34,604 bases of DNA, from positions 1 through 34,604 of IMG/VR virus record IMGVR_UViG_3300025120_000241; one strand, given 5' to 3'. The position numbers and the translations under genes were made by a program. Source of the DNA: a virus. The notes beneath the pieces are model-generated. The model did no database searches, was not told the DNA's origin, and saw only the letters and a program-made list of their open reading frames with translations. Positions 2,424 to 25,401 of the stretch are shown here, piece after piece. The stretch's first letter is position 1. Each line of letters starts with the position of its first letter.

Positions 2424-2779
2424 GATATTTCACCGAAGAAGAATTGGAGTGTCAGCACTGTGGAGCGCGCAACTTTGATGAGCAATTTTTGGAACTGGTT
2501 TCACAACTCAGAGAAGATGCAGGCTTTGCTTTTCCTGTTTCTTCTGGCTATCGCTGTGCTGAACATCCTCTTGAGGCCAAAAAGAAAAGCGGCCCTGGAG
2601 CGCACTCAACGGGCAAAGCAATCGACATTGCCGTAAGCGGTGAGCGGGCATTGAAACTGATTGAGCTTGCCTTGGCTGCTGGTATACAGCGTATCGGCGT
2701 CAATCAGAAGGGTGCGCACAGATTCATCCACTTAGACGCTTGCGACCAAAAAACCACACCAGCAATTTGGAGCTATTGA
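2420..2779 (+). CDS. Endolysin, M15-family D-Ala-D-Ala carboxypeptidase-like
   Basis: A 119-residue zinc peptidase that would cut peptidoglycan cross-links at lysis. GTG 2420 overlaps the holin stop (GTGA). The sequence has the M15_3-type hallmark S-G-Y-R-C at 42-46, then G-A-H-S-T-G-K-A-I-D-I at 60-70, giving zinc ligands His62 and Asp69. The third ligand is probably His105 in R-F-I-H-L-D. There is no signal peptide, so it depends on the holin. The N-terminal C-Q-H-C pair (11-14) is a common extra of this subfamily. It is the last gene before the att region. Confidence 0.88.
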   Translation: MRYFTEEELECQHCGARNFDEQFLELVSQLREDAGFAFPVSSGYRCAEHPLEAKKKSGPGAHSTGKAIDIAVSGERALKLIELALAAGIQRIGVNQKGAHRFIHLDACDQKTTPAIWSY

Positions 2780-2784
2780 CTCCG

Positions 2785-2806
2785 TTCGTACGAAACAACG
2801 TACGAA
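2785..2806 (+). other. Hairpin after the lysis operon
   Basis: TTCGTACG (2785-2792), loop AAACAA, and CGTACGAA (2799-2806) form a perfect 8-bp stem five bases after the endolysin stop codon. There is no T-tract, so it is not a standard intrinsic terminator. It could protect the 3' end of the transcript or bind a protein in the att region. Confidence 0.5.
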
Positions 2807-2814
2807 GAACCTAC

Positions 2815-2839
2815 GAATCTGCCCCCAATCTGCCCCCAC
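2815..2839. repeat. 25-bp direct repeat, copy 1 (possible integrase arm site)
   Basis: This 25-base C-rich element contains two CTGCCCCCA units and recurs exactly at 3031-3055. The two copies lie on either side of the tRNA-like core. Tyrosine integrases use arm-type sites on both sides of the attP core, so arm binding is a reasonable inference. Confidence 0.6.
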
Positions 2840-2867
2840 TGCTTGATTTCTATTGCAGGAATATGAG

Positions 2868-2994
2868 CTAAGTCATTGAAATATATGGCGCACCCGACAG
2901 GATTCGAACCTGTAATCCCCGGTTTCGTAGACTGAAATGGTGTATGTAGGTGTCTGTCAGTGCTTTTATATTGTTACTGAAATCAATGACTTAG
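2868..2994. repeat. 12-bp inverted repeat flanking the att core
   Basis: CTAAGTCATTGA at 2868-2879 and its exact reverse complement TCAATGACTTAG at 2983-2994 bracket the tRNA-derived core. Together with the 25-bp direct repeats this makes a nested, near-symmetric layout typical of a site-specific recombination region. Binding of integrase, Xis or IHF is possible but not shown. Confidence 0.55.
2886..2930 (-). other. attP core: 3' part of tRNA-Arg(ACG)
   Basis: Read on the minus strand, this is a 45-nt tRNA 3' fragment. It runs from the anticodon loop CTACGAA (anticodon ACG) through 3' anticodon stem ACCGG, variable loop, T stem ACAGG/CCTGT with loop TTCGAAT, acceptor CGGGTGC, discriminator G and encoded CCA. 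The 5' half of a tRNA is absent; beyond the anticodon loop the pairing fails. It lies next to the integrase gene. Insertion at such a site would rebuild the 3' end of the host tRNA gene. The encoded CCA fits many gammaproteobacterial hosts. Confidence 0.8.
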
Positions 2995-3030
2995 GTTTTT
3001 GGTCGTGCATTGACGGGCTATCTGGATCAG

Positions 3031-3055
3031 GAATCTGCCCCCAATCTGCCCCCAC
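3031..3055. repeat. 25-bp direct repeat, copy 2 (possible integrase arm site)
   Basis: This is an exact copy of 2815-2839, ending directly at the integrase stop codon. GGGGGCA-type repeats next to integrase genes are common in attP regions. Confidence 0.6.
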
Positions 3056-4126
3056 CTAACGCTTATCAAGCCTGTCCCAGGCGTCGTGCATTATCTCTAC
3101 CTCGTTACGAATCGGGAGATATTTGGCGTAGTAGGTAAGGATTGTATCAACGCGATCACCGACGTTGCTGGCAACAAGAAACGGATCGACCCCGATAGAC
3201 AGCATTGAGCTAATGTATGTATGTCGCCAAGGGTAGGGGCCACTACGCCAACGCACTTGCGCCTCGTCGTGCGCCTTTCTAAAAGCAGCAACAATTGGTT
3301 TCGCGTTTGTGATCGTTTCCCCGGTAACAGACACAACGCTACCGCCGTTTATCGGGCGAGCCATGCCTTGCAGATGCCGCGTCAAATCTTTGCTCAAAAC
3401 AACCCGCCGGGGCTTGCCCGTTTTTGTGCGTTGTTGGAGTTTGCCGCGCACCACTGATTTATTGATCCACAAACTTTCGCCGTTCCAATCTGCCCAAGTC
3501 AGAGCCAGCAATTCCCCTGTCCGCGCTCCCGTCCCAAACGCCAGCCGAAAGTAGTCGGCGAACCTTCCTTTGTCCGTCACTTTCAACAATCGATTTACCT
3601 CGTCTTGCGTGTAAGGATCAGCGTCTGTCGCTTCGACTTTCGGGTTTTTTAAGGCAGTAGTCGGGTCGTCCGCAATCCAGCCTCGCGACATTGCGTAGCG
3701 AAACACTCCGCGCAGTGCGGTTAGCGCATTTTTGTGAGTGCGGCTGTTTGACCACTGGATTGACTCGTCTAGGTCAATCAGATCGTTGCGCGTGACGTGT
3801 TGTATCAATTTGCCGTTGATGGGGTGCCAAAACTTATTCAAATTGCTTTGGTAGCCTTCAAGAGTTGAGTTCTGACGACCAAGCGTTTTTTGTTTTTGCA
3901 GGAACTTAGCTGCTACGTCGTAAAACAAGTATTCGCCGACTTCTGAGTCGTCAGGCTTGCCTCCAAATCGGACGCGCTCGTAAAGCGCATCGCGCTGCTT
4001 AATCGCGGCTTCTATACCACTTTTAGTGGGTCGAAAATCGGTTGTCTGACGGTAACGGATTTTCTTGTGGACGATCCCGATTCTGAGCTTGCCCCGGTGT
4101 AGGGCAATGTTCCTTGGCAGATCCAA
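3056..4126 (-). CDS. int: Tyrosine-recombinase integrase with DUF3596-type arm domain
   Basis: A 356-residue integrase that would catalyse insertion at tRNA-Arg. The start is TTG 4126, with AGGAG eight bases upstream; the longer frame to 4195 has no good start. Residues about 12-55 match the DUF3596 arm-binding domain (K-I-R-Y-R followed by R-P-T-K). SAM-like core binding is at about 65-165. The catalytic domain has A-R-T-G-E-L (Arg202), a K-T-G-K-P-R-R segment, W-R-H-T-Y-I-S (Arg301) and Tyr332 or Tyr333 in T-Y-Y-A-K-Y. The usual HxxR histidine is Tyr298, as seen in relatives, and the usual G-H is G-D. The start overlaps the excisionase gene by about 115 bp. Confidence 0.92.
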   Translation of the reverse strand: MDLPRNIALHRGKLRIGIVHKKIRYRQTTDFRPTKSGIEAAIKQRDALYERVRFGGKPDDSEVGEYLFYDVAAKFLQKQKTLGRQNSTLEGYQSNLNKFWHPINGKLIQHVTRNDLIDLDESIQWSNSRTHKNALTALRGVFRYAMSRGWIADDPTTALKNPKVEATDADPYTQDEVNRLLKVTDKGRFADYFRLAFGTGARTGELLALTWADWNGESLWINKSVVRGKLQQRTKTGKPRRVVLSKDLTRHLQGMARPINGGSVVSVTGETITNAKPIVAAFRKAHDEAQVRWRSGPYPWRHTYISSMLSIGVDPFLVASNVGDRVDTILTYYAKYLPIRNEVEIMHDAWDRLDKR

Positions 4127-4278
4127 TTTTCTATCTCCTGCACGTTCAAAAAGGTCGTGCGATCCCTCACAACATAGTGCGTTCCCCTGATCCACAACCC
4201 TCGCTGAATCTTGCTTCTGATTTGATTAGACGTCAAACCTGTTAGGTCTGACGCCTTTTGTTTTGTGACCCAATTCAT
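4012..4278 (-). CDS. xis: Excisionase-like HTH protein
   Basis: An 88-residue protein with a winged-helix/MerR-like N-terminus: V-T-K-Q-K-A-S-D-L-T-G-L-T, then IRSKIQRGLWIRGTHYVV, then an I-E-N-W-I segment. This is the pattern of short phage excisionases found beside DUF3596-type integrases. They bend attachment-site DNA to steer integrase towards excision. ATG 4278 overlaps the Erf stop (ATGA). The basic C-terminal tail extends into the integrase gene in another frame. Xis and Int translation are therefore probably coupled. Confidence 0.75.
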   Translation of the reverse strand: MNWVTKQKASDLTGLTSNQIRSKIQRGLWIRGTHYVVRDRTTFLNVQEIENWICQGTLPYTGASSESGSSTRKSVTVRQPIFDPLKVV

Positions 4279-8505: not shown

Positions 8506-8687
8506 ACGCAGATTATGAGTATTTGAAATACTGCGCTGCGCGCTCAGTTATCCCAAAACGGTACAACAAGACGCCTAGCGGAAAAGGCAATTGGGGCCAG
8601 TGGTTTGAGAAGAAATTTGGGGAGGATTTAGATGTCTATCGACAAAATCTCCTACGTCAGGTCGAAGAAGCTACTCCAAGCTTCTAA
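8502..8687 (+). CDS. Small hypothetical protein
   Basis: A 61-residue protein with an ATGA overlap to the upstream gene. It is basic and aromatic: Y-E-Y-L-K-Y-C-A-A-R, then KRYNKTPSGKGNWGQWFEKK. Its last 56 bases overlap the next gene in another frame, a longer overlap than usual here. No function recognised. Confidence 0.5.
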   Translation: MNADYEYLKYCAARSVIPKRYNKTPSGKGNWGQWFEKKFGEDLDVYRQNLLRQVEEATPSF

Positions 8688-8964
8688 AGATCAAAGCTGC
8701 GTCAACTGTGGTGCCGTCGGTACTGTGGTGGGCGCTCATTTGACAGGGATGCGCGCTCAAGCGTTTGGCAAAGGCACGGCGAGAAAGGCGCACGACTTCT
8801 GTGTCGCTGATCTTTGCATGAGGTGCCATGCAAAATTTGATGCTTACGAGGGGACGGCGGGCAAAAACCTCCAATTGCGCATCGATCACAGTGAGCAGTT
8901 CTTGTACTGCGTACTTAAAACCATAGAGCGCCGGTTTAAAGACGGCGTTATTGAAATTAGCTGA
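8632..8964 (+). CDS. HNH-like nuclease, YbcO/DUF1364-like
   Basis: A 110-residue protein with a C-V-N-C-G-A knuckle at about residues 23-28, V-V-G-A-H-L-T-G-M-R, G-K-G-T-A-R-K-A-H-D, and C-M-R-C-H-A-K-F-D near residue 63. Paired Cys-x-x-Cys knuckles with H-L or H-x-x-G and C-H-x-x-x-D are the pattern of YbcO (DUF1364) and related HNH-fold recombination nucleases of lambdoid phages. They are thought to resolve branched intermediates, sometimes in the place of NinG or RusA. The start at ATG 8632 has GGAGG upstream (8621-8625). Confidence 0.7.
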   Translation: MSIDKISYVRSKKLLQASKDQSCVNCGAVGTVVGAHLTGMRAQAFGKGTARKAHDFCVADLCMRCHAKFDAYEGTAGKNLQLRIDHSEQFLYCVLKTIERRFKDGVIEIS

Positions 8965-9284
8965 TGTCTCAGGCTGAAGAAGAATTCGCCCTAATCCTGC
9001 GCGCAGCCAAGATCCCGTTTGAGCGCGAGCATAGGTTTCACGACACAAGGCGGTGGCGCTTTGATTTTGTGATTCTGCCTATTGAGGCAAAGATTGCGGT
9101 GGAGATTGAGGGTGGGGTGTTTACCCAGGGCAGGCACACCAGGGGCAAAGGTTTTACTCAGGATCTACTAAAATACAACGAGGCCGTACTAATGGGGTGG
9201 CGCGTGTTGCGCTTTACCACGGCGCAAATCCACGGCATTGCGCTAGAACAGTTGGAGGCTCTGATTAATGAGTACGGACGTTGA
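8964..9284 (+). CDS. PD-(D/E)XK / Vsr-like endonuclease (DUF559-type)
   Basis: A 106-residue protein that overlaps the HNH gene stop by one base. Features: F-E-R-E-H-R-F-H near residue 19, R-R-W-R-F-D-F-V with the first active-site Asp, then A-V-E-I-E-G-G with the acidic E-x-E, R-H-T-R-G-K-G-F, D-L-L-K-Y-N-E-A, and G-W-R-V-L-R-F-T. This order is that of Vsr/DUF559-type nucleases. Together with the previous gene it forms a small nuclease pair in the recombination block. Confidence 0.75.
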   Translation: MSQAEEEFALILRAAKIPFEREHRFHDTRRWRFDFVILPIEAKIAVEIEGGVFTQGRHTRGKGFTQDLLKYNEAVLMGWRVLRFTTAQIHGIALEQLEALINEYGR

Positions 9285-10836: not shown

Positions 10837-11244
10837 ATGGCTGTGCGGCTCAACAAGCGCCACTCCGACATGGTGCGCACAAAAATCCAAGCTAGTCAGT
10901 TAATTAATCGTCTTGAAAATCATGCGTTTGGCGAGTGTGAGTTATCGACCACACAACTGCGCGCGATTGAAATCCTATTGAATAAGTCAGTGCCGAATTT
11001 AGCAGCGATTGCAGTACAGCACCTAGAGGGCGCAGACGAACAACTCAAACAAATCACGGTGAAGTTAGTTGGAGAAAACACTAGAGATACCGGCGGTTTA
11101 CCAGAGCCTTTATCAGCCGAACCGCTACAAAGTGTTTTGGGGAGGCCGGGGCGCGGCGAAGTCATGGAACTGCGCTATCGCTCTACTGATACAAGCGACG
11201 CAGAGGCCATTGAGGATTCTTTGCACGAGGGAAGTACAGGGTAG
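10837..11244 (+). CDS. terS: Putative terminase small subunit
   Basis: A 135-residue protein directly upstream of, and overlapping, TerL. The N-terminal block contains R-T-K-I-Q-A-S-Q-L-I-N-R-L, G-E-C-E-L-S-T-T-Q-L-R-A-I-E-I-L-L, and K-S-V-P-N-L. It matches a small-terminase type of podoviruses that recognises the packaging site; the I-Q-x-S-Q-L-x-N-R-L motif is its hallmark. The last 59 codons overlap TerL in another frame, and that tail (from about T-R-D-T-G-G-L) looks less conserved. The real functional domain probably ends near residue 78. Confidence 0.75.
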   Translation: MAVRLNKRHSDMVRTKIQASQLINRLENHAFGECELSTTQLRAIEILLNKSVPNLAAIAVQHLEGADEQLKQITVKLVGENTRDTGGLPEPLSAEPLQSVLGRPGRGEVMELRYRSTDTSDAEAIEDSLHEGSTG

Positions 11245-12367
11245 CATCCGCGAGTCTGTACATAAGCTACTGGCAGATCAGATTAATCGCCTTGGGCTGC
11301 AAGACGAATACGAGATCGTTGAACACACCATCCGGGGCCGTAACGGTTCTGAATTCATCTTTGAAGGCTTGCGGCACAACGTCGACAAGATCAAGTCGAC
11401 TGAGGGCATCGATATTTGCTGGATCGAAGAAGCTGACCGGGTGTCAGACGAATCCTGGCAAGTGTTGATACCGACCATTCGTAAGCCCGGCTCTGAGATA
11501 TGGGTCACGTTTAACCCGCAATTGAGATCCGACGCAACGTATCAACGCTTCGTTGAGAACGCGCCAGATAACGCCGTCGTTGAGAAGGTGAGTTGGCGTG
11601 ACAACCCTTGGTTTCCTGATGAACTGGTCAGCGAGCTAGAGCATCTAAAGCAGATTGATTACGACGATTATTTGCACGTTTGGGAAGGCGAGTTTAAGAC
11701 GTTTGCAACGTCAGCCATATATGGCAAGCAGCTAAAACAAGCGCGCGAGGAAGGGCGCATAACCTCAGTCCCTATAGAACCGGCGTGCGAAGTCCACACG
11801 GCATGGGACTTAGGTAAGAACGATACAACCGCCATCTGGTACTTCCAGAAGGTAGGCGTTGAATATCGGTTCATCGACTACGACGAGAATCGGTTGGTCG
11901 ATCTTGATTGGTACGCCAAAGTTATTAAGAGCAAGAATTACCTATACGGAACGCACTACCTACCTCACGACGTCGACTTTGAGTTGTTGGGTATGGTGAA
12001 CAATCGTAAACACCAGCTAGAAGACGCAGGCGTAAAGCCTATCGAGGTTGTGCCGCGCATCAGGCACATACAAGAAGGCATTGAGATGACCCGGCGCATG
12101 TTTGCCAGTTGTTGGTTTGACAAAGAGCGTTGCGAGCGGGGCATAGAGTCATTGTCGAACTACGAATACAGCTTTGATGCAAAGAACAACACGCACCGCA
12201 GCACGCCCTTACACAACTGGGCATCGAATGGCGCGGATGCATTCAGACAAGTCGCTCAAGGATTTAAGCAGTCCTCTTGGGCGCGAATACATGAACCGGC
12301 GATAAGTGAACGCCGACGCAAAATAGTCGGCACGCAGTGGTCGCAAGACACCGCCTGGAGAACCTAA
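11069..12367 (+). CDS. terL: Terminase large subunit
   Basis: A 432-residue packaging motor and nuclease. Walker A is G-G-R-G-A-A-K-S at residues 25-32. Walker B is I-D-I-C-W-I-E-E-A-D at about residues 111-120. V-T-F-N-P-Q follows, and a C-terminal nuclease block contains A-W-D-L-G-K-N-D-T-T-A-I-W. It resembles Terminase_3/PBSX-type large subunits. It must start upstream of Walker A; TTG 11069 is the only useful start, so it overlaps terS by 176 bases. The stop overlaps the portal ATG (TAATG). Confidence 0.93.
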   Translation: MEKTLEIPAVYQSLYQPNRYKVFWGGRGAAKSWNCAIALLIQATQRPLRILCTREVQGSIRESVHKLLADQINRLGLQDEYEIVEHTIRGRNGSEFIFEGLRHNVDKIKSTEGIDICWIEEADRVSDESWQVLIPTIRKPGSEIWVTFNPQLRSDATYQRFVENAPDNAVVEKVSWRDNPWFPDELVSELEHLKQIDYDDYLHVWEGEFKTFATSAIYGKQLKQAREEGRITSVPIEPACEVHTAWDLGKNDTTAIWYFQKVGVEYRFIDYDENRLVDLDWYAKVIKSKNYLYGTHYLPHDVDFELLGMVNNRKHQLEDAGVKPIEVVPRIRHIQEGIEMTRRMFASCWFDKERCERGIESLSNYEYSFDAKNNTHRSTPLHNWASNGADAFRQVAQGFKQSSWARIHEPAISERRRKIVGTQWSQDTAWRT

Positions 12368-14472
12368 TGGAAATAGAGCCAATGGACGAAAGCCAAGTCG
12401 TCAGCATTGTGCGCGGCAAGATCAATGATTGTCTGAACGAGTCGGGTGGAGAAATCTCCGAGACTCGCATGGAGAATTATGACTACTACGTTGGCCGCGA
12501 ATACGGCAACGAGCGCGATGGTTTTTCTAGCGTTGTTACTCGTGAATCAATGGAGGCCGTTGAGTGGGCATTACCCTCAATCATGCGCGTGTTTACGTCC
12601 AGCAATGAGGTCGTAAAGTATGAGCCGGTTGGCCCGGAAGACGAACAAGAAGCGCGTCAGCAGACGCAGATCAGTAACCACTATCTCACCCGCGAAAACA
12701 ACGCATTCCTAGCCCTATACAACTGGTTCAAAGACACGCTCATGTATCCGAACGGCTACATCAAGCTGTTTATGGACGAGCGCGTTGTCACGCGCACCGA
12801 AGAATTCAAAGGCTTGGACATGATGCAGTTGCAAGCTGCGATGGTGAATCTTGCTCAAGAGGGGGAGGTCGAGGTTGTTGAGCAGGAGTCTGCTTACGAA
12901 GAAGTGATGACGGACGGATATGCGTCACAGACCGAAACCTTTAGCGTCAAGCTGCGTGTCACCAAGCAAATCTGTGAGCCGAAGCTGGTTAACATCCCGC
13001 CTGATGAACTGCTTGTCGCAGAGAATTGTTTTTCTATCGACCTAGACGAAGCCGATTTCTTATGTCACCGGGTGAAGAAGACGTACTCCGAACTGGTTGA
13101 GATGGGCTATGACAGAGACATGCTTGAGGACGTTGGTTCTGGCAGCAATCAGTTTGATGAAGAAGACGAGAATAAACTGTTCTCCGAGGACGAGGATGAC
13201 GTTGATGAGTCTGATCCATCGATGCGCCTGTACACGGTCAACGAGTGTTTCTTAAAGATTGACGAGGACGGTGATGGCATAGCCGAACATCGCAAAATAT
13301 GTCTTATCGGCAGCACGATCTTTGCTGACGAGGAAATCAATTACCAGCCATTCGTCGCGCTCACGACTGTACCGCTGCCGCACCAGCACCCTGGCATGTC
13401 GATGATCGATATGGTCAAAGACATCCAGAAGATCAAGTCAACGCTGATGCGCAACATGCTGGACAACATCTACAAAGCAAACGTGCGACGCAAGTACGTT
13501 GGCGATGCGTTTATATCGGATGAAGCAGGCACGCTGGATGTGCTGCTAGATACGGCGAGTGAGTTTATCCCGGCGCGAGATCCTAGTGCGCTCCGCGAAG
13601 AACAGGTGCAGCCGATTGTCTCAGAGATACTGCCGGTGATTAAGACGATGGACGAAGTGCAGGGCATCCGTACAGGCGTCACGCCGCAGTTGAGCCTAGA
13701 CCCGAACATACTGCGCGAAACCACAATGGGCGCGTATCAGTCTGCCATCAGTCAGGCAAGCCAGCGTATAGAGATGATCGTGCGCATATTTGGCGAGACA
13801 GGCGTTAAGCAGTTGTTCATCAAGATGCACCAACTGTTACGCACGACGGTAGACAAAGACCGCACCATCCGCATTAGAGGCGAGTGGGTAGCGTTCAACC
13901 CGGCAAACTGGTCGGAGCGTAATAACGTGACCGTTGAGGTCGGGCTTGGTTACAACAGCAAAGCCGAAGAATTGCAGATGCTCAATAACCTGCTGACGAT
14001 TCAGAAAGAGGCTGCGCAGCATGGCTTGGCAACGCCAGGTAACGTCTACAACACGCTAGACCGCATCGTTGAGTTAGGTAACGTCGGTGAGACTCAGACG
14101 TTCTTTACTGACCCAGCAACCGTGCCGCCGAAACAACCTGCAGGCCCAACCGTTGCAGAGCAGCTTGCAATGACCGACTTGCAGATGCGTCAGGCCGAGA
14201 GCCAAGCCAACTTGCAGATGAAGTCTAACGAGATGCAGATGAAGCAGCAGTCGGCTGCGGTAGAGGCTCAGACCAAGATGGCAATGGATCAGCAGAAGAT
14301 GCAGATGCAGATCGCTGAGTTGCAGGCGAAGCTCGCTGAGATGGACGCCGATAAGAAACTCAAAGAAGCGCAAACCTATAAGACGCTGGAAGAAGCGCGC
14401 GGGTTGGATCTTGAGAACGACGGCACTGAGACAGGCGTGGTTGATCTGCTGACGGAGCAACTGCGTGGGTAG
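12367..14472 (+). CDS. Portal protein, P22 type
   Basis: A 701-residue portal that would form the dodecameric DNA gate at one head vertex. ATG 12367 overlaps the TerL stop. Visible family parts are M-E-A-V-E-W-A-L-P-S-I-M-R-V-F at about 59-73, D-T-L-M-Y-P-N-G-Y-I-K, P-D-E-L-L, G-M-S-M-I-D-M-V-K-D-I-Q-K-I, and L-R-N-M-L-D-N-I. Length and motifs resemble the P22 gp1/DUF4055-like portal group used by podoviruses. The C-terminal part is a Q/M/E-rich coiled coil (MKSNEMQMKQQSAAVEAQ), like the P22 barrel. Confidence 0.9.
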   Translation: MEIEPMDESQVVSIVRGKINDCLNESGGEISETRMENYDYYVGREYGNERDGFSSVVTRESMEAVEWALPSIMRVFTSSNEVVKYEPVGPEDEQEARQQTQISNHYLTRENNAFLALYNWFKDTLMYPNGYIKLFMDERVVTRTEEFKGLDMMQLQAAMVNLAQEGEVEVVEQESAYEEVMTDGYASQTETFSVKLRVTKQICEPKLVNIPPDELLVAENCFSIDLDEADFLCHRVKKTYSELVEMGYDRDMLEDVGSGSNQFDEEDENKLFSEDEDDVDESDPSMRLYTVNECFLKIDEDGDGIAEHRKICLIGSTIFADEEINYQPFVALTTVPLPHQHPGMSMIDMVKDIQKIKSTLMRNMLDNIYKANVRRKYVGDAFISDEAGTLDVLLDTASEFIPARDPSALREEQVQPIVSEILPVIKTMDEVQGIRTGVTPQLSLDPNILRETTMGAYQSAISQASQRIEMIVRIFGETGVKQLFIKMHQLLRTTVDKDRTIRIRGEWVAFNPANWSERNNVTVEVGLGYNSKAEELQMLNNLLTIQKEAAQHGLATPGNVYNTLDRIVELGNVGETQTFFTDPATVPPKQPAGPTVAEQLAMTDLQMRQAESQANLQMKSNEMQMKQQSAAVEAQTKMAMDQQKMQMQIAELQAKLAEMDADKKLKEAQTYKTLEEARGLDLENDGTETGVVDLLTEQLRG

Positions 14473-17236
14473 TAAGCCAAGCCTTGCAAGCCTCGTTGTA
14501 GATTACAAGCGCAAGAAGCTGGACGCGGTTCACGGCACTGGCTATGAGTTTGACGAGTTTGAGCTAGGCGTTAACCAAGGCACGCACGGCCAGATGTACG
14601 GTGAAGGCATTTATGCGTCTACAGCCGACGAAATTGGCGGTAACTACGCGCCTCGCGATTTAGACCATGAAGAATGGATGATGTCGCAGTACCAGGCGGC
14701 AGATGGCGACTATTACTTGATGGACGCTTGGGAACGGGCGCTGTCGCATGAGACACCTTGGTCGATGCGCGAGATGGCAAATGACCCTGACATTGATGCG
14801 GGTACACGCGAGGCGTATTTAGAGGTTGCACAGGCGCTATCGGACAACCCTCCTAAAAAAGGTCACATGCTGCGGTTGGAGATCGACGCCGACGCTGGTG
14901 AACTATTGAACTGGGACGCGCCTTTAAGTGAGCAGCCAGAATTCGTGCAGAACGCGGCAGCAGGCATGGGTCTGCCAAGCAACCCGAAGGGTAAAGACAT
15001 TTACTACCGCATGGTAGACGCAAGCACACCGGCACAAGAAGCGCCGACTAAAATACGCCAAGCCCTACAAAAGATTGGTGCAAAGGGCATTACTTATAAA
15101 GAGCGCAACTCAGCAGACGCGCAGAACTATGTGATCTTTGACCCCAAGATTATTGAAATAGCCGAACGATATGCGATGCCGGTTACCTATGTCGGGGCGG
15201 GTGGGTTAACGGCTTACACGGCGCTATCGGCTGAAGAGACTCAGGCAGCTTTGCCGGGTAAGCCTGCAATGTTTAAGGGCAAGGACGTAAAGACTCTTAG
15301 CCCTGACGAGTTCGCGGCGTTTGGCAGAGAATACGGCGTTGAAAATCTTGGCCCGTTGTCTAAAATAGAGAGTGTTGGAGACAGTGGGCAGTCAGTGGCC
15401 GTGCCTGGCGGTCTGGAAGGCGAATTTACTTACGCTGACCTGATTTGGTTAAAAGCAAACCCGATTGACCCATCTCAACTCGACAATGGAACGAGGATCG
15501 CGATCCAGAACAAAATGGTTCGCGCCGTGAGTCCTGCACCAGGGAACGAGTTGGACGTCTTCAACCGCTATGTATTTGGGATGTTAAGCCCAAACCAGCC
15601 TTTGACCCCTAATGAATTTGAAGCAGCCGCGCTCCGAGTAAGATCGCAGGACGACATTGATCGGTTTGCAAGTTTTATTGATTGGGAACCTGGCGAGAAA
15701 GTAAGCAAAGAACGTCGAAAAGCTGCTGAAACAAAGATGGCAGAGTTCTTTGAGACTCAGGCCGGTAGTCGTGGAGGTATGGGCCTCAAAGGATCAGCCG
15801 ATTACACCAATCTGGCCGAGTTCGCCAAGCTTTATAAGAAAGACCCCAGTTGGTGGACAAAGAACGAAAGCGAAAGCTGGATCGACTTCGTTGAGCGCGT
15901 GCAGACACAAGGTCGCGGTCTAAGCAGTAAAGTCGCATCTTTTTCCACCGTATGGCAAGACCCAGTCAACGCAGCCATCAGTGCAATAGACCGGCACATG
16001 GCGCGGGAGTTCATGCCCGAACTGTTCGCGACTAAGAAGTCACGCAAGCAATTTGAACAAGGTGTTGTTAAGCGATTTAACAGCATGGTGGACGAAGTCA
16101 GGCGAGCAAAAGACGACCCAGAAGCAATAGCGGCGTTAAAGAAAAAAGGGTTCCCAATCGGCGCTACTAGCAAGGTGAAAAACCTAGATCAAGTGTTTGG
16201 TCAGCGTGGCGGTGATGCGGTGTTTATGGAACGCATTATGAGTTTGTTAGGGGCAAAGTCGCCTAAATACAGGCTTAAAACGGGAGAAATAAACCCTAAC
16301 CTTCCAGAAAACCTCAAAAACACGGAATTCCTGGTAGAGCCAGAAACGGCGCAAGTAGTTGGTGATGCATATCGGCGGGCGCTTACTGAAAACGAGCGCA
16401 TCGCTGTTGATAACGGTATGCACTTGTTTAGCCAGCAGTGGATGCTGTGGGACAACATTCGGCGGCGATTAGAGCCGCATGAGGTAATGTTCCCAGGCTT
16501 AGAAAAACTGCCGCCAATGAGTAGGAATCAACTGGAATCGGCGCTATCAGAACATAAACAAGCAGGCTACATGAACTCGTCAAAAGAGTTGGTGGCAGAC
16601 CCTGTGACGGGCGAGCTAAACCCTCGGATGAAGCCGACTCGACCAATGGATTATCAAAAGGCAATGTATTACACGGCGGCAGGCGGTGTTGGATTAACTC
16701 AAGCCGATAATTTATACGCCGAAGAAATACCCAACATGCAGGCCGTAGCGCAACGCGCGCAGACGTTCTCATTGAACCGCGACAACAAGAACAGAGCATG
16801 GACGGGCCTTAAAGACGCGGTGGGCAAGATGACCCAACCGTTTCAGCCGTTAGCGGAGTTCGTGGCACACAGTGCAGCGGGGATGGGTTCTGGTTTAGTT
16901 GGGTTTGCAGGTCATGGCGGTGGCGGTGACTTGCAGAAGGACTTTGGAACGCCTTATAGCCCGCAAGCGGTAGAAGACATGAGGGCGTCAATTCGTGGCG
17001 TACCGGAGCAAATTGGGTTTGGCCCAATGGATGACAACTCGTATCAGCGAGCGTTGAACGATGCGATGGGGTCAGTTGCCGACACGGTGACAAGCAATCC
17101 GGGTTATCGCGCATTTGTCGAGCCGATGTTGCCTGACGCTGCCGAATTCTTAATAGACCAATACCAGCAAGAGCCGCCGCATTATCAAGATGCGCTGAGT
17201 GGCCTTGGCGAGTACATAGGAAACGCAATTCGATGA
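14465..17236 (+). CDS. Large head-module protein with N-terminal ADP-ribosyltransferase-like domain
   Basis: A 923-residue protein from GTG 14465, overlapping the portal stop. Residues about 20-230 resemble ART-PolyVal domains: A-V-H-G-T-G (His23), F-D-E-F-E-L-G, G-Q-M-Y-G-E-G-I-Y-A-S-T (Tyr50), then G-I-T-Y-K and Q-N-Y-V-I-F-D-P near 205-230. The H/Y arrangement is that of diphtheria-toxin-like ARTs; the third catalytic residue is unassigned. The middle (about 250-770) is helical and unrecognised. The C-terminal part is G/A-rich with amphipathic helices. Its place between portal and scaffold suggests that it is packaged and ejected. ART activity is inference. Confidence 0.7.
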   Translation: MGSKPSLASLVVDYKRKKLDAVHGTGYEFDEFELGVNQGTHGQMYGEGIYASTADEIGGNYAPRDLDHEEWMMSQYQAADGDYYLMDAWERALSHETPWSMREMANDPDIDAGTREAYLEVAQALSDNPPKKGHMLRLEIDADAGELLNWDAPLSEQPEFVQNAAAGMGLPSNPKGKDIYYRMVDASTPAQEAPTKIRQALQKIGAKGITYKERNSADAQNYVIFDPKIIEIAERYAMPVTYVGAGGLTAYTALSAEETQAALPGKPAMFKGKDVKTLSPDEFAAFGREYGVENLGPLSKIESVGDSGQSVAVPGGLEGEFTYADLIWLKANPIDPSQLDNGTRIAIQNKMVRAVSPAPGNELDVFNRYVFGMLSPNQPLTPNEFEAAALRVRSQDDIDRFASFIDWEPGEKVSKERRKAAETKMAEFFETQAGSRGGMGLKGSADYTNLAEFAKLYKKDPSWWTKNESESWIDFVERVQTQGRGLSSKVASFSTVWQDPVNAAISAIDRHMAREFMPELFATKKSRKQFEQGVVKRFNSMVDEVRRAKDDPEAIAALKKKGFPIGATSKVKNLDQVFGQRGGDAVFMERIMSLLGAKSPKYRLKTGEINPNLPENLKNTEFLVEPETAQVVGDAYRRALTENERIAVDNGMHLFSQQWMLWDNIRRRLEPHEVMFPGLEKLPPMSRNQLESALSEHKQAGYMNSSKELVADPVTGELNPRMKPTRPMDYQKAMYYTAAGGVGLTQADNLYAEEIPNMQAVAQRAQTFSLNRDNKNRAWTGLKDAVGKMTQPFQPLAEFVAHSAAGMGSGLVGFAGHGGGGDLQKDFGTPYSPQAVEDMRASIRGVPEQIGFGPMDDNSYQRALNDAMGSVADTVTSNPGYRAFVEPMLPDAAEFLIDQYQQEPPHYQDALSGLGEYIGNAIR

Positions 17237-17528: not shown

Positions 17529-18605
17529 GTGGATACCCCGCAAACGGATTCTACAAATTCTGTCGACATCGCTACCGAACGCTTTATGCAGAGTTCTGTT
17601 TTTGGTGACGACGAGGGAACAATCCAAGAAACAGAGGCGCAAGCCCCGGTTGAGGACGACGCCGAAGTCGAAGAAGTAACAGAGGAAGCAGAAGCAGATG
17701 TAGAGACTGTCGATGAAGACAGCGACCCAGAGGAAGTCGAAGAACCGGCATCCGAGGAAGACGAACAACAGGCATCTTATGAGAGCCTGGCTGACTTTGC
17801 CGAGGCGCTAGACGTTCCCATTTCGGAACTTCTAACTACCGTGAAGGCGCAAATAAAAGTCGACGGCCAGACGGATGAGGTCACCCTGGACAGTCTGATC
17901 CGAGATCACCAAAAAAGTAGACATTTTCTCAATAAGGCGAATCAGCTTGCCGAAGAACGCCGACAATTTGATGCGGAAGTCACGGAGAGACAACAGCAAT
18001 TTGAGTCATCAAACGCTCAATCTGCGTACATTCTCAACACACTAACCGCCGGGATCACGCAGCAAATGCAAAGCCCAGCCATGAAGCAACTACGAACGTC
18101 GAACGTCGCAGAGTGGAACGCTAAACGCATTGGCTACGAGGATCAGTTGAAGGCTATTGAAAAGCTGAGATCAACCGCTGCTGCGAAATATGACGCGACT
18201 AAAGCGCAGATTGCCCAAGACCGTCAAACTCGCATTGCAGAGCAGCTCGTTGGTGAAGCTGAACGATTAGAAGAAGTGATACCGAACTGGAACGAGACAA
18301 CCCGGAATGAAGTAACGACGTTTCTCATGCAGGAACCCGATTACGGATTTACCCCGGAGCTTGTTAACAGCATCCACGACCATCGCTATGTGCGAATGGC
18401 TTGGGAGGCTATGCAGTATCGAAAGCAACTTGCCAGTGCAGGCGAAGCGGTGAAAACCGTGAAGAAGGCACCCAAGGCGCTCACTCCTGGTAAACGTCAG
18501 ACACCAAGAACCAATCAGCAAAAGCAAGTAAAGGCACTACGGGGCCAATTGCGCAAAAGCGGAAATGTTAAGGACGCAGCAGCATTATTAGAGAAAATTC
18601 TTTAG
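17529..18605 (+). CDS. Scaffolding protein
   Basis: A 358-residue protein from GTG 17529, with GGAG at a usable distance. The first about 85 residues are strongly acidic (EEVEEPASEEDEQQ and similar). Then come A-D-F-A-E-A-L-D-V-P, I-K-V-D-G-Q-T-D-E-V-T-L, and a long coiled coil (NKANQLAEERRQFDAEV). The C-terminus is basic (KKAPKALTPGKRQT), the end that typically contacts coat protein. Acidic N-terminus, coiled-coil centre and basic C-terminus directly before the coat gene are typical of phage scaffolds. Confidence 0.88.
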   Translation: MDTPQTDSTNSVDIATERFMQSSVFGDDEGTIQETEAQAPVEDDAEVEEVTEEAEADVETVDEDSDPEEVEEPASEEDEQQASYESLADFAEALDVPISELLTTVKAQIKVDGQTDEVTLDSLIRDHQKSRHFLNKANQLAEERRQFDAEVTERQQQFESSNAQSAYILNTLTAGITQQMQSPAMKQLRTSNVAEWNAKRIGYEDQLKAIEKLRSTAAAKYDATKAQIAQDRQTRIAEQLVGEAERLEEVIPNWNETTRNEVTTFLMQEPDYGFTPELVNSIHDHRYVRMAWEAMQYRKQLASAGEAVKTVKKAPKALTPGKRQTPRTNQQKQVKALRGQLRKSGNVKDAAALLEKIL

Positions 18606-18617
18606 AGGAATCTAATC

Positions 18618-20173
18618 ATGGCTCAGTCCACCAATACGCTAGATCGCTATGACCTAGCAACCAACGGTGACAATGCTCGCGAAGATTTAAGAAACATCAT
18701 CAGCGACATTTCACCTACCGACACCCCGTTCCAATCTTCAATTGGCCGGGATAAAGCAACCAACACATATACCGAATGGCTTATGGACAGCCTTGCTACA
18801 GCGTTAATTGGCGCTCCTGCTTAGGAATAGGCAGGCAAACAGACGGTGAACTCAGGGAACCTCTCAAGCAGACAATCCTGATCCAAGCCTCAATAGAGGA
18901 AGGTGCAACGATCATCCCGAAAGGGAGTAGGGCCAAGTGGCCCGAAGCGCCGTCTACCCAGACCGGGTAAAGATATGATCTCAACTGTGTGGCGACACGC
19001 AGCAGCCTACGGGCGCTGACAGACTAACGACCTGTCGGGAAGGTACAGCAAGCAGCAACGCTCACATAGACGGTGACGAGTTCTCAGGCGACGCCCTGAC
19101 CACTCCAGCCCGACTCGGTAACTACTGCCAGATTTCACGCAAAGACCTAGTGACATCACGCCGAGCTAACATTGTTAACAAGGCGGGTCGAAAGCAGGAA
19201 ATGGCGTACCAGCTTGCAAAAGCCGGTAAGGAAATCAAGCGCGATGTTGAGAGCGTACTGTTAGCCAACCAAGTTGGTGCATCAGGCTCTAGCAGTGGCG
19301 CTAGTACAACAGCAGGCTTACCAGCCTGGATTGGTGTCGCAGTTTCATCTGAAGTCGACAGTGGAAACACAGACAGAGGATCAGGTGGAGCAGACCCAGC
19401 GTTGTCCTCAACTAATGACGGATACCCCGGTACAGCAGCTACGGACGGAACGGCTCGCGCGCTGACCGAAGACGGCTTGTTGGGTGTTATCAAGTCATGC
19501 TACATCAACGGTGCAACCCCCAACGTCATTATGATGGGGCCAACCGTTAAGCAGCTATTCAGCAAGTATATGTTCTCTAGCAGCAGCCGAATCGCGACCC
19601 CTTACCAAGACTTTGGTAAGAACACTCGCGACGGTGTTGGTGTTGTGGGAGCAGTAGACGTATACGTTAATTTAGGCGTAGCCGCATAGGAATATGCGGG
19701 CAATAACGTGGTGAACTCAGGGGACAACTCTAAGAGTCAATCCTGATCCAAGCCGAGAAATCGGAAGGTGCAACGACTATCCCTTACGGGAGTACAACCA
19801 AGCGGTTGGAAGCGCCACGCACCCAGAACGGGTGAAGATATAGTCTCATCTCTACGGCGACGTAGAGCAGCCGAAAGGCGGGGCCAGTTTAGCGAACTGG
19901 TTTGAAGGTTCATGCTCAGATTTCGGTGTACTTGATGTGGTTCCTAACAGGTTCCAACGACAAGTATCGTCCGATTACACTGACGTCTTCGTTCTTGATA
20001 CTGAATACGCAAAGGTGGCGTACCTCGACGATTACCGTACTGACGTTATCGCTAAGGTAGGCGACGCCGAACGCAGAATGCTGTTGGTTGACTATGCATT
20101 AGTTATAGACAACCCCGGCGCGCACGGCATCTTTGCAGACGTAAATGACGACACTGCAATGACTGCAAGCTAA
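18618..20173 (+). CDS. Major capsid protein, SU10-like, split by two group I introns
   Basis: The gene is best read as join(18618-18804, 19049-19667, 19915-20173): 187+619+259 = 1065 bases, 354 residues. Exon 1 ends in D-S-L-A-T-A. The first junction makes TCA and continues S-S-S-N-A-H-I-D-G-D. Exon 2 ends in D-V-Y, and the second junction makes GTC and continues V-S-D-F-G-V-L. Both joined regions match the SU10/DUF5309 coat family in register (family: D-S-L-A-A-A-V-T-T-N-A-Q, D-V-Y-V-S-D-F-G). The unspliced frame would stop at 18824. Other family parts are G-N-Y-C-Q-I-S-R-K and V-P-N-R-F-Q-R. Upstream AGAGG is a plausible ribosome site. Confidence 0.9.
18805..19048 (+). ncRNA. Group I intron 1 in the coat gene (244 nt)
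   Basis: Hand folding gives: P1 exon AGCGT(T) 18800-18805 with GGCGCT 18810-18815 (U-G at the splice site); P2 CCTGCTT/AGGCAGG; P3 GACGG 18842-18846 with CCGTC 18950-18954; P4 CAGG/CCTG; P6 CCTC/GAGG; P7 GATCAT 18910-18915 with ATGATC 18975-18980; P7.1 and P7.2 hairpins; P8 TACCC/GGGTA; P9 with GCGA loop. The last base is G (19048). Extra stems between P7 and P3 suggest subgroup IA. There is no endonuclease ORF. Most stems covary with intron 2. Confidence 0.93.
19668..19914 (+). ncRNA. Group I intron 2 in the coat gene (247 nt)
   Basis: Same architecture as intron 1: P1 TACGT(T) 19663-19668 with GGCGTA 19675-19680; P2 CCGCAT/ATGCGG; P3 CGTGG 19707-19711 with CCACG 19815-19819; P4 CAGG/CCTG; P5 ACTC/GAGT; P6 CCGA/TCGG; P7 GACTAT 19775-19780 with ATAGTC 19840-19845; P7.2 CAACC/GGTTG; P8 CACCC/GGGTG; P9 CTCTACG/CGTAGAG with GCGA loop. 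A further stem CCAGTT/AACTGG precedes the 3' end. The last base is G (19914). No ORF. It is clearly a sibling of intron 1. Confidence 0.93.
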
Positions 20174-21176: not shown

Positions 21177-22633
21177 CCAAGATGATCTTTGGCGAGTGGT
21201 TGCCAGATCAACCGGCGCTCGATAATCCGGGCGCGACCATTGCTAAGAACGTGCTGCCTTATGTGCGCACTTATGGCTCGTTTAAGAGTCTGCAATCGTT
21301 TTCTACTGCACTGAGCGCGGCGTGTGTGGGGTCTGTAACCGTCAAGGACAGTGCGGGCACCATCCATAACCATGCGGGTTCTGGCACTAAAATAGAGGCG
21401 TTATCGGCCACTAAAACGTGGGCCAATATCAGCAAGAGCGGCAACTATGTCGGTGCCAGTTCTTGGCGTTGGGGCCGGTTTGGTGATCGCATGATCGCTG
21501 TGGCTCCGGGGATTGCTCCGCAGTATTACGACCTAACAACATCCAGCACTTATTTGGATTTACCTGGTTCGCCGCCAAAAGCCGAAAGCATTGCGACCAT
21601 TCGTAACTTCTTGGTGTTGGGCAACATCAACGACGGTTCGCCAAGGCCGAACCGATTGAACTGGTCGGGCTATAACAATACCGAGCTATGGACTGCGAGC
21701 ATTGCTACGCAGTCAGACACAAGAGATTTAGAGGGCGACGGTGGCGATATTCAAGCCATCGTTCCAGGAGGTTACGGCGTCGTGTTCCAAGAGAACTCAA
21801 TATGGACGATGACGTATGCAGGCCCGCCGACGATATTTAGATTAAACGAGGTCGAAGAAGGTCGAGGCACGCCAGCACCCGATAGTGTGTGTTGGTCAGG
21901 ATCAACGATCTACTACTTGGGTCAAGACGGGTTTTATGCCTTCACCGGCCAAGGCTCGCGTCCGATTGGCGCTGAGAAGATCGACCGCTGGTTCTTTGAA
22001 ACCGCAGACGAGAATTCTGTGCGCTTTGTGCGCGGTGTTGTTGATCGACGTAACCGCATGGTCATTTGGTCGTTCAGATCAAGCAGCACGCTGGACTACA
22101 ACGATTACCTGTTGATCTACAACTGGGCTGCGGACAAGTGGTCGTACTGCCAGGTCAACACTGAGGTGATCTCTGAGTACCTGACAACGGACTACAACCT
22201 TGACCAATTAGACACGCCACTGCCCAACGGCATCGATACCGATTCGATCCCCGTCGACTCCGAAGCGTTTAGAGGTGGTCGGGTGTCTATGGCCGCGTTT
22301 GGTACAGACCACAAGATGGGTACGTTCAACGGTACATCGCTTAACGCCGAGCTAGAGACAAAAGAGATCGCAGACCCTAGTGGCAATACGTTGGTGCTTA
22401 CCGGCGTCAGGCCGTTAGTGGATGGCGCAAGCGCGACAGTGACAGTGCAGAGCGGCACGCGCACAAACCAGAACGAGAATTATCAGTATGGCTTGTCTCA
22501 GGCGCAGAACACGCTGGGCAAGATGAGTTTTAGAAACAAGGCGCGGTATCACCGCATTAGGGTCAACACGACGGGCGAGTTTAACGACGCCTTTGGTGTG
22601 GATATTGACGTATCGCTTGGAGGCAAACGGTAA
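21173..22633 (+). CDS. Tail hub / packaged-DNA stabilisation protein, P22 gp10-like
   Basis: A 486-residue protein. The start M-T-K-M-I-F-G-E-W-L-P-D-Q-P-A-L, then N-P-G-A-T-I-A-K-N-V-L-P is typical of phage stabilisation proteins. Repeated W/G/D blocks look like beta-propeller blades: W-R-W-G-R-F-G-D-R-M-I-A-V, R-N-F-L-V-L-G-N-I, P-G-G-Y-G-V-V-F-Q-E-N-S-I-W, I-Y-Y-L-G-Q-D-G-F-Y. The C-terminal part is strand-rich. It would close the channel below the adaptor and carry fibres. Confidence 0.88.
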   Translation: MTKMIFGEWLPDQPALDNPGATIAKNVLPYVRTYGSFKSLQSFSTALSAACVGSVTVKDSAGTIHNHAGSGTKIEALSATKTWANISKSGNYVGASSWRWGRFGDRMIAVAPGIAPQYYDLTTSSTYLDLPGSPPKAESIATIRNFLVLGNINDGSPRPNRLNWSGYNNTELWTASIATQSDTRDLEGDGGDIQAIVPGGYGVVFQENSIWTMTYAGPPTIFRLNEVEEGRGTPAPDSVCWSGSTIYYLGQDGFYAFTGQGSRPIGAEKIDRWFFETADENSVRFVRGVVDRRNRMVIWSFRSSSTLDYNDYLLIYNWAADKWSYCQVNTEVISEYLTTDYNLDQLDTPLPNGIDTDSIPVDSEAFRGGRVSMAAFGTDHKMGTFNGTSLNAELETKEIADPSGNTLVLTGVRPLVDGASATVTVQSGTRTNQNENYQYGLSQAQNTLGKMSFRNKARYHRIRVNTTGEFNDAFGVDIDVSLGGKR

Positions 22634-25401
22634 TGCCGGGTAGCAACAATACAGAAGCAGAAGACGAAGACGACAATGTAAATCCGTATGCCGGTAGCCC
22701 AGAAGACGTCGCCGAATACATTGAAAAAAACAACATCCCCGGCCCTGTCTGGATGGAAGAAATCGCAGATGCAGATGATTTAGCAGCAATCCAAGACGCG
22801 CTTGCGAACATTGCCAACCAGCCAACTGTGGAGGCGCCTCCCCAACAAGGGCCACCGTTGCCTTCCGACTATACGCCACCAAGCGTAGGCGCAGCGCCAC
22901 AGCTTCCGTCGACAGGTGGCACAACAAACCCTTATACGCCGCCACCAGTTGTTGATCCGACAGTAAATCCTGACGTTGATTCAAATGTGATACCGGGATC
23001 GGGCAGCATTTATTCGGGAAGCGTGGGCGCAGGTTTTGGAACCTTTATTCCAATAAGCGCAATTCAAGGCCAGTTAGATGATCTGCGGCAGGACGATCTT
23101 GATGCTTATAACGCCATCATGGGCAACGTAACGCCTACTGGAACCGTGGAAATTAATGAAGATACGTTAGCGGCAATTGAGGCAATGCAAGGGTATGCAG
23201 ATGCGCCGGGCCAAACAATCGCAGAGAAGCCCGGAGAAGTAGAGGCAACGCCAGACACTAACCCACAGCTACCAGCCGACGAACAGGATGTTAACAGCAC
23301 GGTTGCCCAACAACTCCCAGACGATTGGGAGCTAGACATTAAGCTGATTTTGGACGCTTTAGAGTCGGGTGATGAGGCGGCAGCGGCACAAGCCATTGCG
23401 AACGCTCAAAATACAGCAGCGACACAAAAGGCAGTTGCAGATGCGTCTACTACAACGCAAGAGGCCGTAACGGGCGCTGCGGGCGAAACGCAAGAAGTCG
23501 TGACGACTACAGCAGGCCAAACGCAGGATGCGGTCAGTGGAGCAGCAGGCGAAACCCAAGACGTTGTAACAACTGCCGCTGGTCAGACGCAGGATGCAGT
23601 TAGTGCGGCAGCAGGTGAGACACAAGATGTTGTGACGACTACTGCGGGAGAGACTCAAGACGCAATTGCTACGTTGCAAGAAGCAATTAACGCAGGTGCC
23701 TTAACCTTTGAGGAATTGGTTGCGTCTGGCTTCTTAGACGTTACCGAAACTTTTGCCGATACCTACGAGGATTTAGCGACACAGATAGAAACCGGCCAGA
23801 CAGATTTGGCAACTGCTATTGATAATGGCCTTGCGTCAGTTAACACCGACATAGCGGATCAATTTGGCGACGTTACAACTGGCTTAGAAGGCGTTGCGGA
23901 GGGTGTCACCGAGACACAACAAGCGGTAGAAGATACTGCCGGTGAAACGCAAGCGGCGGTTGGGGAAGCGGCGAGCGAGACACAAGACGTCGTTACGACA
24001 ACGGCTGGCGATACGCAAGACACGGTAACGACCACTGCCGGTGAAACGCAGGATGTGGTCACTACATCGGCGGGCGAGACTCAGGATGTTGTCAATACGG
24101 CGGCTGGAGAAACGCAAGACGTTGTTACTACCTCAGCAGGCGAAACTCAAGAGGCCGTCCAGAAAGCGGCTGAAACCACTGACGAGGCGATTAAGACATT
24201 AGCCAGTGCAATGGGCGTCACTCAAGACGAGATCAAAGAAGCCGTAAACAACGGCAACACTCAAGTGATAGAGGGTCTGGCTGAGATTGAAACCTTGCTA
24301 ACGGAAGCGGACAGCGCCATAGAAGCCGTGGCCGAACAAGTAGGGCTGACCGGCGAAGAACTGACCAAGGTGATCCAAGACGGTGACGCATCAGTCGTGC
24401 AAGGATTGGCAGATATAGAAGCTGTTTTAGATCAGTTACCAGAACCGATAGCCGAAGCGTTGGAGCCGTATTTTACTGCTCTTAGCGAAGGTATAACGAC
24501 GCTAACCTCAGACCAAGAAAAAAGTCTGCAAAGCATATTGGAAACGCTTGGTGAGATGAACGTGCCTGTTGTTTCGGCTATTGCTGATTCTACGGCTGAC
24601 ACTATTGGGGCAATAACAGGCGTCAAGGACGTACTTTTAGGAATGGGCGAAGCGGTGTATGACCGCCTTTTCAAACCTAGAGAGCCAGGGGATGCGATAA
24701 CCGCAGATGAATACGCCGCAGATTTAGCGGGCGCTGCAAGCATAGATCGAACTGGCGCTGGCCTTGGTAGTGGTGGCTCAAGCGTCATAGGCGGTACGGG
24801 CAGTGGCGGCACAGGTGGTGGGTCTGGTGCTGGCAGTCGTGACCCGGTAAACATCACCGATTACATATCGGTAGATAACGACACACAAACGGGATCGGGC
24901 GGCGGGAACGTCAGCACTGATCCTACGAGCGGAGAAGGCGCGCAGAGCAATGCGTTCACAAGGCCGGTGCCGATTGCTAACCAAGAGTTGTTTGGTGGCT
25001 ATATGGGCCAAGCGCAGCGTCTCAGCGGTACGTTAGACACTTATCCGCAATTGCAGCGGCAAGCGAGCGAGCAGTATGGCGCACAAGTCGCGTCAGAATT
25101 TCCAGCCCTCAATCAAGATCAGCAAGGCGCATTTGCGCAATACGTTACCGCGAAGGTGCAGGCCAAGGCAGGCATTGGGCAAGACCCTGGCTTCTTGCCA
25201 TACGACATATACAACAAAGTTGCCCCGCGACTGTCTGAGGTGCTGGGCGACATTGGTTATTACCAATACTCAAGCGGTCGTCGCATCCCCGGCTTTATGA
25301 ACTATATGCCTGACTATCAGGACTCTATGTTTAACCGCCAGGACATCGGCACTGATCCGCTTCCGGGCGGGCCTCCACCAACGCAACCTGGCTTCGTATG
25401 A
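22633..25401 (+). CDS. Large structural protein with 11-residue repeats
   Basis: A 922-residue acidic protein. Residues 1-260 are P/N/D-rich. Residues about 274-346 and 424-513 consist of tandem 11-residue units such as A-A-G-E-T-Q-D-V-V-T-T, matched by 33-base DNA repeats. Such hendecads usually form extended amphipathic or right-handed coiled-coil helices. The section 514-680 is helical. A glycine linker rich in G/S/T follows at about 710-740, then a C-terminal domain with A-F-A-Q-Y-V-T-A-K-V-Q-A-K-A-G. Its location between tail hub and ejection proteins suggests an internal or ejected protein. No known family identified. Confidence 0.7.
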   Translation: MPGSNNTEAEDEDDNVNPYAGSPEDVAEYIEKNNIPGPVWMEEIADADDLAAIQDALANIANQPTVEAPPQQGPPLPSDYTPPSVGAAPQLPSTGGTTNPYTPPPVVDPTVNPDVDSNVIPGSGSIYSGSVGAGFGTFIPISAIQGQLDDLRQDDLDAYNAIMGNVTPTGTVEINEDTLAAIEAMQGYADAPGQTIAEKPGEVEATPDTNPQLPADEQDVNSTVAQQLPDDWELDIKLILDALESGDEAAAAQAIANAQNTAATQKAVADASTTTQEAVTGAAGETQEVVTTTAGQTQDAVSGAAGETQDVVTTAAGQTQDAVSAAAGETQDVVTTTAGETQDAIATLQEAINAGALTFEELVASGFLDVTETFADTYEDLATQIETGQTDLATAIDNGLASVNTDIADQFGDVTTGLEGVAEGVTETQQAVEDTAGETQAAVGEAASETQDVVTTTAGDTQDTVTTTAGETQDVVTTSAGETQDVVNTAAGETQDVVTTSAGETQEAVQKAAETTDEAIKTLASAMGVTQDEIKEAVNNGNTQVIEGLAEIETLLTEADSAIEAVAEQVGLTGEELTKVIQDGDASVVQGLADIEAVLDQLPEPIAEALEPYFTALSEGITTLTSDQEKSLQSILETLGEMNVPVVSAIADSTADTIGAITGVKDVLLGMGEAVYDRLFKPREPGDAITADEYAADLAGAASIDRTGAGLGSGGSSVIGGTGSGGTGGGSGAGSRDPVNITDYISVDNDTQTGSGGGNVSTDPTSGEGAQSNAFTRPVPIANQELFGGYMGQAQRLSGTLDTYPQLQRQASEQYGAQVASEFPALNQDQQGAFAQYVTAKVQAKAGIGQDPGFLPYDIYNKVAPRLSEVLGDIGYYQYSSGRRIPGFMNYMPDYQDSMFNRQDIGTDPLPGGPPPTQPGFV
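23455..24170 (+). repeat. Two arrays of 33-bp coding repeats
   Basis: Inside the 922-residue gene, 33-base units run at 23455-23670 and 23905-24170. Equivalent ACGCAAG/ACGCAGG/ACCCAAG starts at 23488, 23521 and 23554 show the exact 33-base step. Units differ at many third positions while keeping the G-E-T-Q-D-V-V pattern, so the protein repeat appears to be under selection. Confidence 0.85.

Follow-up and report, generated by a model that had tools for sequence, protein, structure and literature searches.

An SU10-like coat gene in three pieces

Positions 18618 to 20173 of IMG/VR virus record IMGVR_UViG_3300025120_000241 raise the question of how a phage could obtain one coat protein from a gene whose three open pieces, before joining, lie in three different frames. 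The window analyzed here is the whole record, 34,604 bases of a temperate SU10-like phage, and the gene encodes an SU10-like major capsid protein (MCP). The pieces are parted by segments of 244 and 247 nucleotides (nt), and we consider it very likely, with a probability of about 93%, that these segments (18805-19048 and 19668-19914) are group I introns splitting one SU10-type coat gene, whose splicing, in cells as well, is predicted from sequence. An original prediction, made from the letters of this stretch alone, had placed the three exons and both segments at these same positions, and their coordinates were confirmed.

All parts of the gene lie on the + strand. Exon 1 (18618-18804, 187 nt) is an open frame of codons 1 to 62 plus one base, and it is a 100% match to the N-terminal part of two relatives, the IMG/VR contigs L003 and L004. 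Exon 2 (19049-19667, 619 nt) shows in-frame homology to intron-free coat genes, and exon 3 (19915-20173, 259 nt), which includes the stop codon and corresponds to the end of the SU10_MCP profile, is a 100% match to L003, L004, and a further contig, L005. Joining the three exons gives 1,065 nt with a single terminal stop and a product of 354 amino acids, which matched Pfam SU10_MCP (PF17236) with an E value of 9.9e-80 over residues 15 to 345 and positions 11 to 291 of the 292-position profile. This match, together with the intron-free relatives described below, upholds the earlier expectation that splicing would restore 354 codons with the register kept across both junctions. Because in-frame stops sit early in the introns, in the P2 loop region and 18 to 22 nt from the intron start in both, unspliced RNA would give only a 68-residue fragment: with intron 1 retained, the frame ends at TAG 18822-18824, and with intron 2 retained, translation past exon 2 ends at TAG 19687-19689.

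Intron 1 (18805-19048, 244 nt, site 62) follows the first base (T) of codon 63, and intron 2 (19668-19914, 247 nt, site 270) follows the second base of codon 269, between GT and C and before the SDFG codons. Intron-free relatives fixed these exact boundaries, together with three requirements: a kept frame, a terminal G, and a U.G pair at the 5' splice site. Intron-free alleles (L006 to L009 and L012 to L018, with proteins 74 to 92% identical) run uninterrupted across both junctions. The two introns share 72% identity, and neither encodes an endonuclease open reading frame (ORF), for which 244 and 247 nt are too short. A search with the Rfam group I model, RF00028, had been proposed as a check, and both segments matched. 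Intron 2 scored 70.7 bits over 19634-19867, above the gathering score of 50 bits, and intron 1 scored 47.3 bits over 18796-19002, under that cut-off, with an E value of 5e-11 within the stretch and 8e-13 in a one-family search of the record. No RF00028 matches other than these two were found in the whole record.

Secondary structure and covariation

One secondary structure model was drawn up to cover six introns, which occupy four sites of the coat gene. The modeled helices are P1, P2, P3, P4, P5, P6/P6a, P7 (which forms a pseudoknot with P3), P7.1, P7.2, P8, P9, P9.1, and P9.2. Across this set, pairing is kept in 97.3% of 403 cells, and both sides have changed in 39 of 68 pairs. None of 500 shuffles equaled the real alignment on any measure, and sliding the partner by 1 to 3 columns lowered the pairing to 35 to 41%, a control that is limited in that the structure was drawn on the same six sequences. 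A chance origin of the inserts is excluded by the covariation. Unconstrained minimum-energy folds also gave P1 to P9.2 minus the P7 pseudoknot (z scores of -2.55 for intron 1 and -3.80 for intron 2), with P1 present in the folds of both introns.

P1 of intron 1 (18801-18814) is formed by exon bases GCGU (18801-18804) and intron base U18805 pairing with the guide GGCGC (18810-18814), and the pair U18804.G18811 marks the splice site. Similarly, in P1 of intron 2 (19663-19680), exon bases UACGU (19663-19667) and U19668 pair with GGCGUA (19675-19680), and U19667.G19676 marks the site. The splice-site U.G is invariant in all six introns, and every one of them ends in G. At site 25, P1 covaries between exon and intron, with GCGU facing the guide GCGC in L005 and GGCU facing GGCC in a fourth relative, L010. 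A CCUGCU/GGCAGG hairpin of intron 1 was considered as P1 and rejected because the empty sites of relatives place the 5' site upstream; it has no U.G counterpart in intron 2, and the hairpin is P2.

The guanosine-binding helix, P7, covaries between the two introns, its 5' strand being GAUCA in intron 1 (18910-18914, paired with UGAUC at 18976-18980) and GACUA in intron 2 (19775-19779, paired with UAGUC at 19841-19845). P7.1 is UCCC/GGGA, and P7.2 has five pairs, all five covarying. P7.1 and P7.2 hairpins between the P7 5' strand and the P3 3' strand are characteristic of subgroup IA; by this rule, taken here as general background, the modeled window introns are group I introns of subgroup IA. 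Overall, the structure model, the covariation, and the RF00028 matches bear out what the original prediction had read from the letters, namely, an SU10-like coat gene holding two group I introns, each with a P1 to P9 core, a U.G pair at the 5' splice site, and a terminal G.

Zero to four introns in closely related genes

Relatives of the coat gene were drawn from IMG/VR. L003 and L004, which come from different datasets, share both introns with the window as well as an identical protein sequence for exon 2, and once spliced, the coat DNA of L003 does not differ from that of the window at any base. An assembly artifact is excluded by these identical copies in separate datasets. Three introns (sites 25, 62, and 270) interrupt the coat gene of L005, and four (sites 25, 62, 121, and 270) interrupt the single coat gene at 4324-6385 of L019, while L010 has the site 25 intron only and L011 the site 62 intron only. 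As seen, the introns at sites 25, 62, 121, and 270 come and go independently among close relatives, and the spliced coat genes that were checked are all 1,065 nt long with one terminal stop. Between the window and L019, the site 62 intron differs by one base and the site 270 intron by none. The exact spliced-junction DNA was also sought in IMG/VR, as an empty allele or cDNA, and was found for neither site.

The exons of L005 and L019 differ at 12 of 1,065 bases. Four of these differences (357, 360, 366, and 369) lie no more than 7 nt from the junction that follows base 363, a junction filled only in L019, suggesting DNA-level homing with co-conversion. Of the hallmarks of mobile introns, the presence/absence polymorphism is clear, and exon co-conversion is suggested to differing degrees: the clustering of exon changes at site 121 has a p of 5e-5 against random placement and of about 0.008 under a block-preserving null, with a similar, weaker cluster around site 25 (p of 0.015 to 0.08).

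Related introns in capsid genes

For the whole intron (about 255 positions), a profile hidden Markov model was used in place of a covariance model. A DNA core pattern built from both window introns matched 49 IMG/VR contigs, in 47 of which the intron interrupts a capsid gene, and a second core pattern gave at least 119 further IMG/VR contigs, at least 61 of them with the intron in capsid genes, in counts whose contigs are not dereplicated and in which capsid-bearing fragments are more readily classed as viral. These numbers call for a correction to the earlier statement that known phage group I introns sit mostly in DNA-metabolism or lysis genes, as such introns are not rare in capsid genes. 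A third, more distant T4-like core pattern, which served as a looser control, gave at least 117 contigs with usable flanks, at least 27 with the intron in capsid genes and at least 18 in psbA; the strict form of this control pattern gave no matches. Since the third pattern also finds capsid genes at this frequency, capsid genes are common intron hosts in general, and near-confinement to them is specific to the subfamily of the window introns.

According to profile searches, the coat families with such introns are SU10_MCP (PF17236, PHROG 1328), T7-type Gp10A (PF21703), Phage_capsid_2 (PF19821), Phage_capsid_4 with PHROGs 267/1357, PHROG 9953, the HK97-type PHROG 10, and PHROG 422, some of the PHROG capsid profiles overlapping weakly. 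These intron-bearing coat families share the HK97 fold. Two or more intron matches, some of which may be parts of one intron, were seen in 44 of the 109 contigs with an intron-bearing capsid gene. In L154 (3660-6305), a PHROG 1357-like coat gene has its exons parted by five or more group I introns, and a sixth match lies a little way upstream. L185 has five matches to group I introns within about 1.5 kb of its - strand (190-1528), in a gene that was not recognized. Cyanophage psbA genes were a further location of group I introns, in L120 and in the third-pattern contigs counted above (e.g., L273), with several per gene in some.

Insertion sites and mobility

Projected on the window coat protein, the insertions of SU10-like genes fall near residues 25 to 33, 56 to 68, 84 to 96, 109 to 117, 122 to 125, 265 to 272, and about 317. 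The site of window intron 2, between YV and S, is also occupied in three contigs with only distantly related SU10-type coat proteins (L051, L080, and L117). Among 52 introns of SU10-type genes placed in a tree, the shallow clades are site specific (sites 62, 28, 265, and 116), as homing predicts. The site 270 intron of the window is closest to site 62 introns (support of 84/85), and it lies inside a 15-intron clade (96/98) that spans sites 28, 62, 96, 124, 265, and 270; therefore, the lineage has moved between sites.

Some related capsid-gene introns encode LAGLIDADG endonuclease ORFs (a cluster of ten loci), and the window itself encodes an HNH-type protein in a free-standing gene at 8632-8961 (PHROG 131, E value of 2.5e-12). 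In the early region (8632-9281), this gene is followed by a short gene weakly resembling DUF559 and a homing endonuclease family. We infer that the introns spread by homing, with the endonuclease supplied from elsewhere. Alternatively, their RNA might insert itself into new capsid-gene sites by reverse splicing and then be reverse transcribed. Sites 25, 62, and 270 mostly share the exon end CGU and a similar guide, and the nearest relatives of the site 270 intron, as well as its six-site clade, lie at other sites, both of which fit reverse splicing. However, the site-specific shallow clades, the exon changes on both sides of the newest insertion, a pattern expected from co-conversion, and the LAGLIDADG ORFs of related introns argue for DNA-level homing, and we regard reverse splicing as unlikely. 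A broader proposal, which we hold only tentatively and at somewhat less than even odds, is that of an ORF-less intron lineage specialized on capsid genes, which would cross unrelated capsid families, hop between positions, stack copies, and be moved by endonucleases encoded elsewhere.

Proposed mechanism and alternatives

In the mechanism that we propose, each intron would fold in the transcript and bind guanosine at P7. At the U.G pair of P1, the RNA would be cut on the 3' side of the U, the exons would be joined, and the intron would leave with its 3' terminal G, so that splicing would restore a single 354-residue coat protein. In this reading, both belong to a family of small introns that resides largely in capsid genes and has colonized this gene at four or more sites among near relatives, and its members are probably near neutral for the phage.

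Rather than being tolerated mobile elements, the introns could be retained because they regulate coat production, for instance, as a late-expression checkpoint sensing GTP or translation. Their marked bias toward capsid genes, seen in several coat families, would fit such a role, as would the early stops, which bar ribosomes from the ribozyme core. Nevertheless, such stops are expected in any phage intron, relatives have intron-free alleles with open frames, and the number (0 to 4) and sites of introns vary within one gene lineage, making a regulatory function quite improbable. The segments might instead be degenerate, with splicing lost and the coat gene broken or replaced by another. The score of intron 1 under the Rfam gathering score and the indirect case for splicing could be read in this way, but the helices are intact, including P1 and P7, the exons have kept open frames and a high similarity to homologues, joining them yields a full-length protein, and only 0 to 1 differences per intron separate the window from L019; we therefore judge decay to be very improbable. 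Finally, an assembly chimera or sequencing error that placed unrelated segments in the coat gene, conceivable for an IMG/VR-type virus record that is probably metagenome derived, has a negligible probability given the same two introns in the independent contigs L003 and L004, these and others in L005 and L019, and inserts that are covarying group I introns and not random sequence.

For the reading of the two segments as mobile, spliced group I introns, four points weigh on the other side. Intron 1, at 47.3 bits, falls slightly short of the RF00028 gathering score, and splicing is deduced from sequence and structure. The co-conversion signal is modest at site 121 under the block-preserving null and weaker at site 25. 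Moreover, the HNH-type gene, the candidate source of an endonuclease in the window, is 10 kb away from the coat gene and could have a role other than moving these introns.

Comparison with known introns

The window introns resemble the RF00028 subgroup IA introns of the phage T4 td, Twort, and SPO1 type in their P1 to P9 core, P7.1/P7.2, splice-site U.G, and terminal G, and their core is 67 to 82% identical to phage introns in helicase, polymerase, and terminase genes. Unlike the td, Twort, and SPO1 type, they lack an endonuclease ORF, are only 244 to 247 nt long, and lie in a coat gene, with two per gene (four in L019).

Earlier papers likewise report introns in capsid genes. Mycobacteriophage LittleE has a group I-like intron in its major capsid gene, with splicing demonstrated by reverse transcription-PCR and protein sequencing (PMC3706429), and the same paper cites lactococcal phage Tuc2009 for a capsid intron. 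LittleE differs from the window in having one 819-bp insertion with a LAGLIDADG-type ORF in another coat family. In the Zeta group of crAss-like phages, the MCP gene is in five pieces, and self-splicing introns were inferred (PMC7886860). This human-gut lineage differs in that three of the four inserts encode intron-type domains, and the paper describes no family-wide capsid association of ORF-less introns. In the Bastillevirinae, splicing of phage group I introns was shown, for some unaided in vitro, with no capsid gene mentioned (PMC11878797), and huge gut phages have many small introns whose splicing is backed by metatranscriptomes (PMC12363816). Capsid-gene introns, as in LittleE and crAss-like phages, and the canonical group I type are already known. 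No description of an ORF-less intron family with a focus on capsid genes was found in the literature, of which mostly openly accessible papers were covered, and a small, ORF-less, largely capsid-bound, multicopy intron family appears to be new.

A further case is phage C72C1 (OQ984150.1, L209), where an SU10-like MCP gene (2111-3312) is split by an unannotated group I intron at about position 116. This intron is 76% identical to window intron 2 over 68% of the latter, and it is the only one found there, in contrast to the two of the window. GenBank annotates this one split gene as a pair of separate "major head protein" genes, along with spurious reverse ORFs, an example of how intron-bearing coat genes get split in annotations. 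The standard Rfam cut-off likewise misses intron 1, and virus surveys based on capsid genes may lose or mis-split these phages. Few products of an infection are as abundant as the coat protein, so splicing would have to be very efficient in a coat gene that carries several self-splicing introns, and closely related genes with 0, 1, 2, 3, or 4 introns offer a natural experiment on the gain of sites and its cost.

Other genes of the window

Bacterial genomes were searched for a prophage host with the window coat gene, and no relative was found. The window encodes two large proteins, one of 923 amino acids (14465-17236) without a Pfam or PHROG match and one of 922 amino acids (22633-25401) without a match in a search of PHROGs only. 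The other genes of the window include an integrase (3056-4195, - strand), a terminase (11069-12367), an SU10 portal (12337-14472), and a head scaffold (17529-18605), and the window also encodes an SU10 adaptor, a holin, and a lysis-type peptidase.
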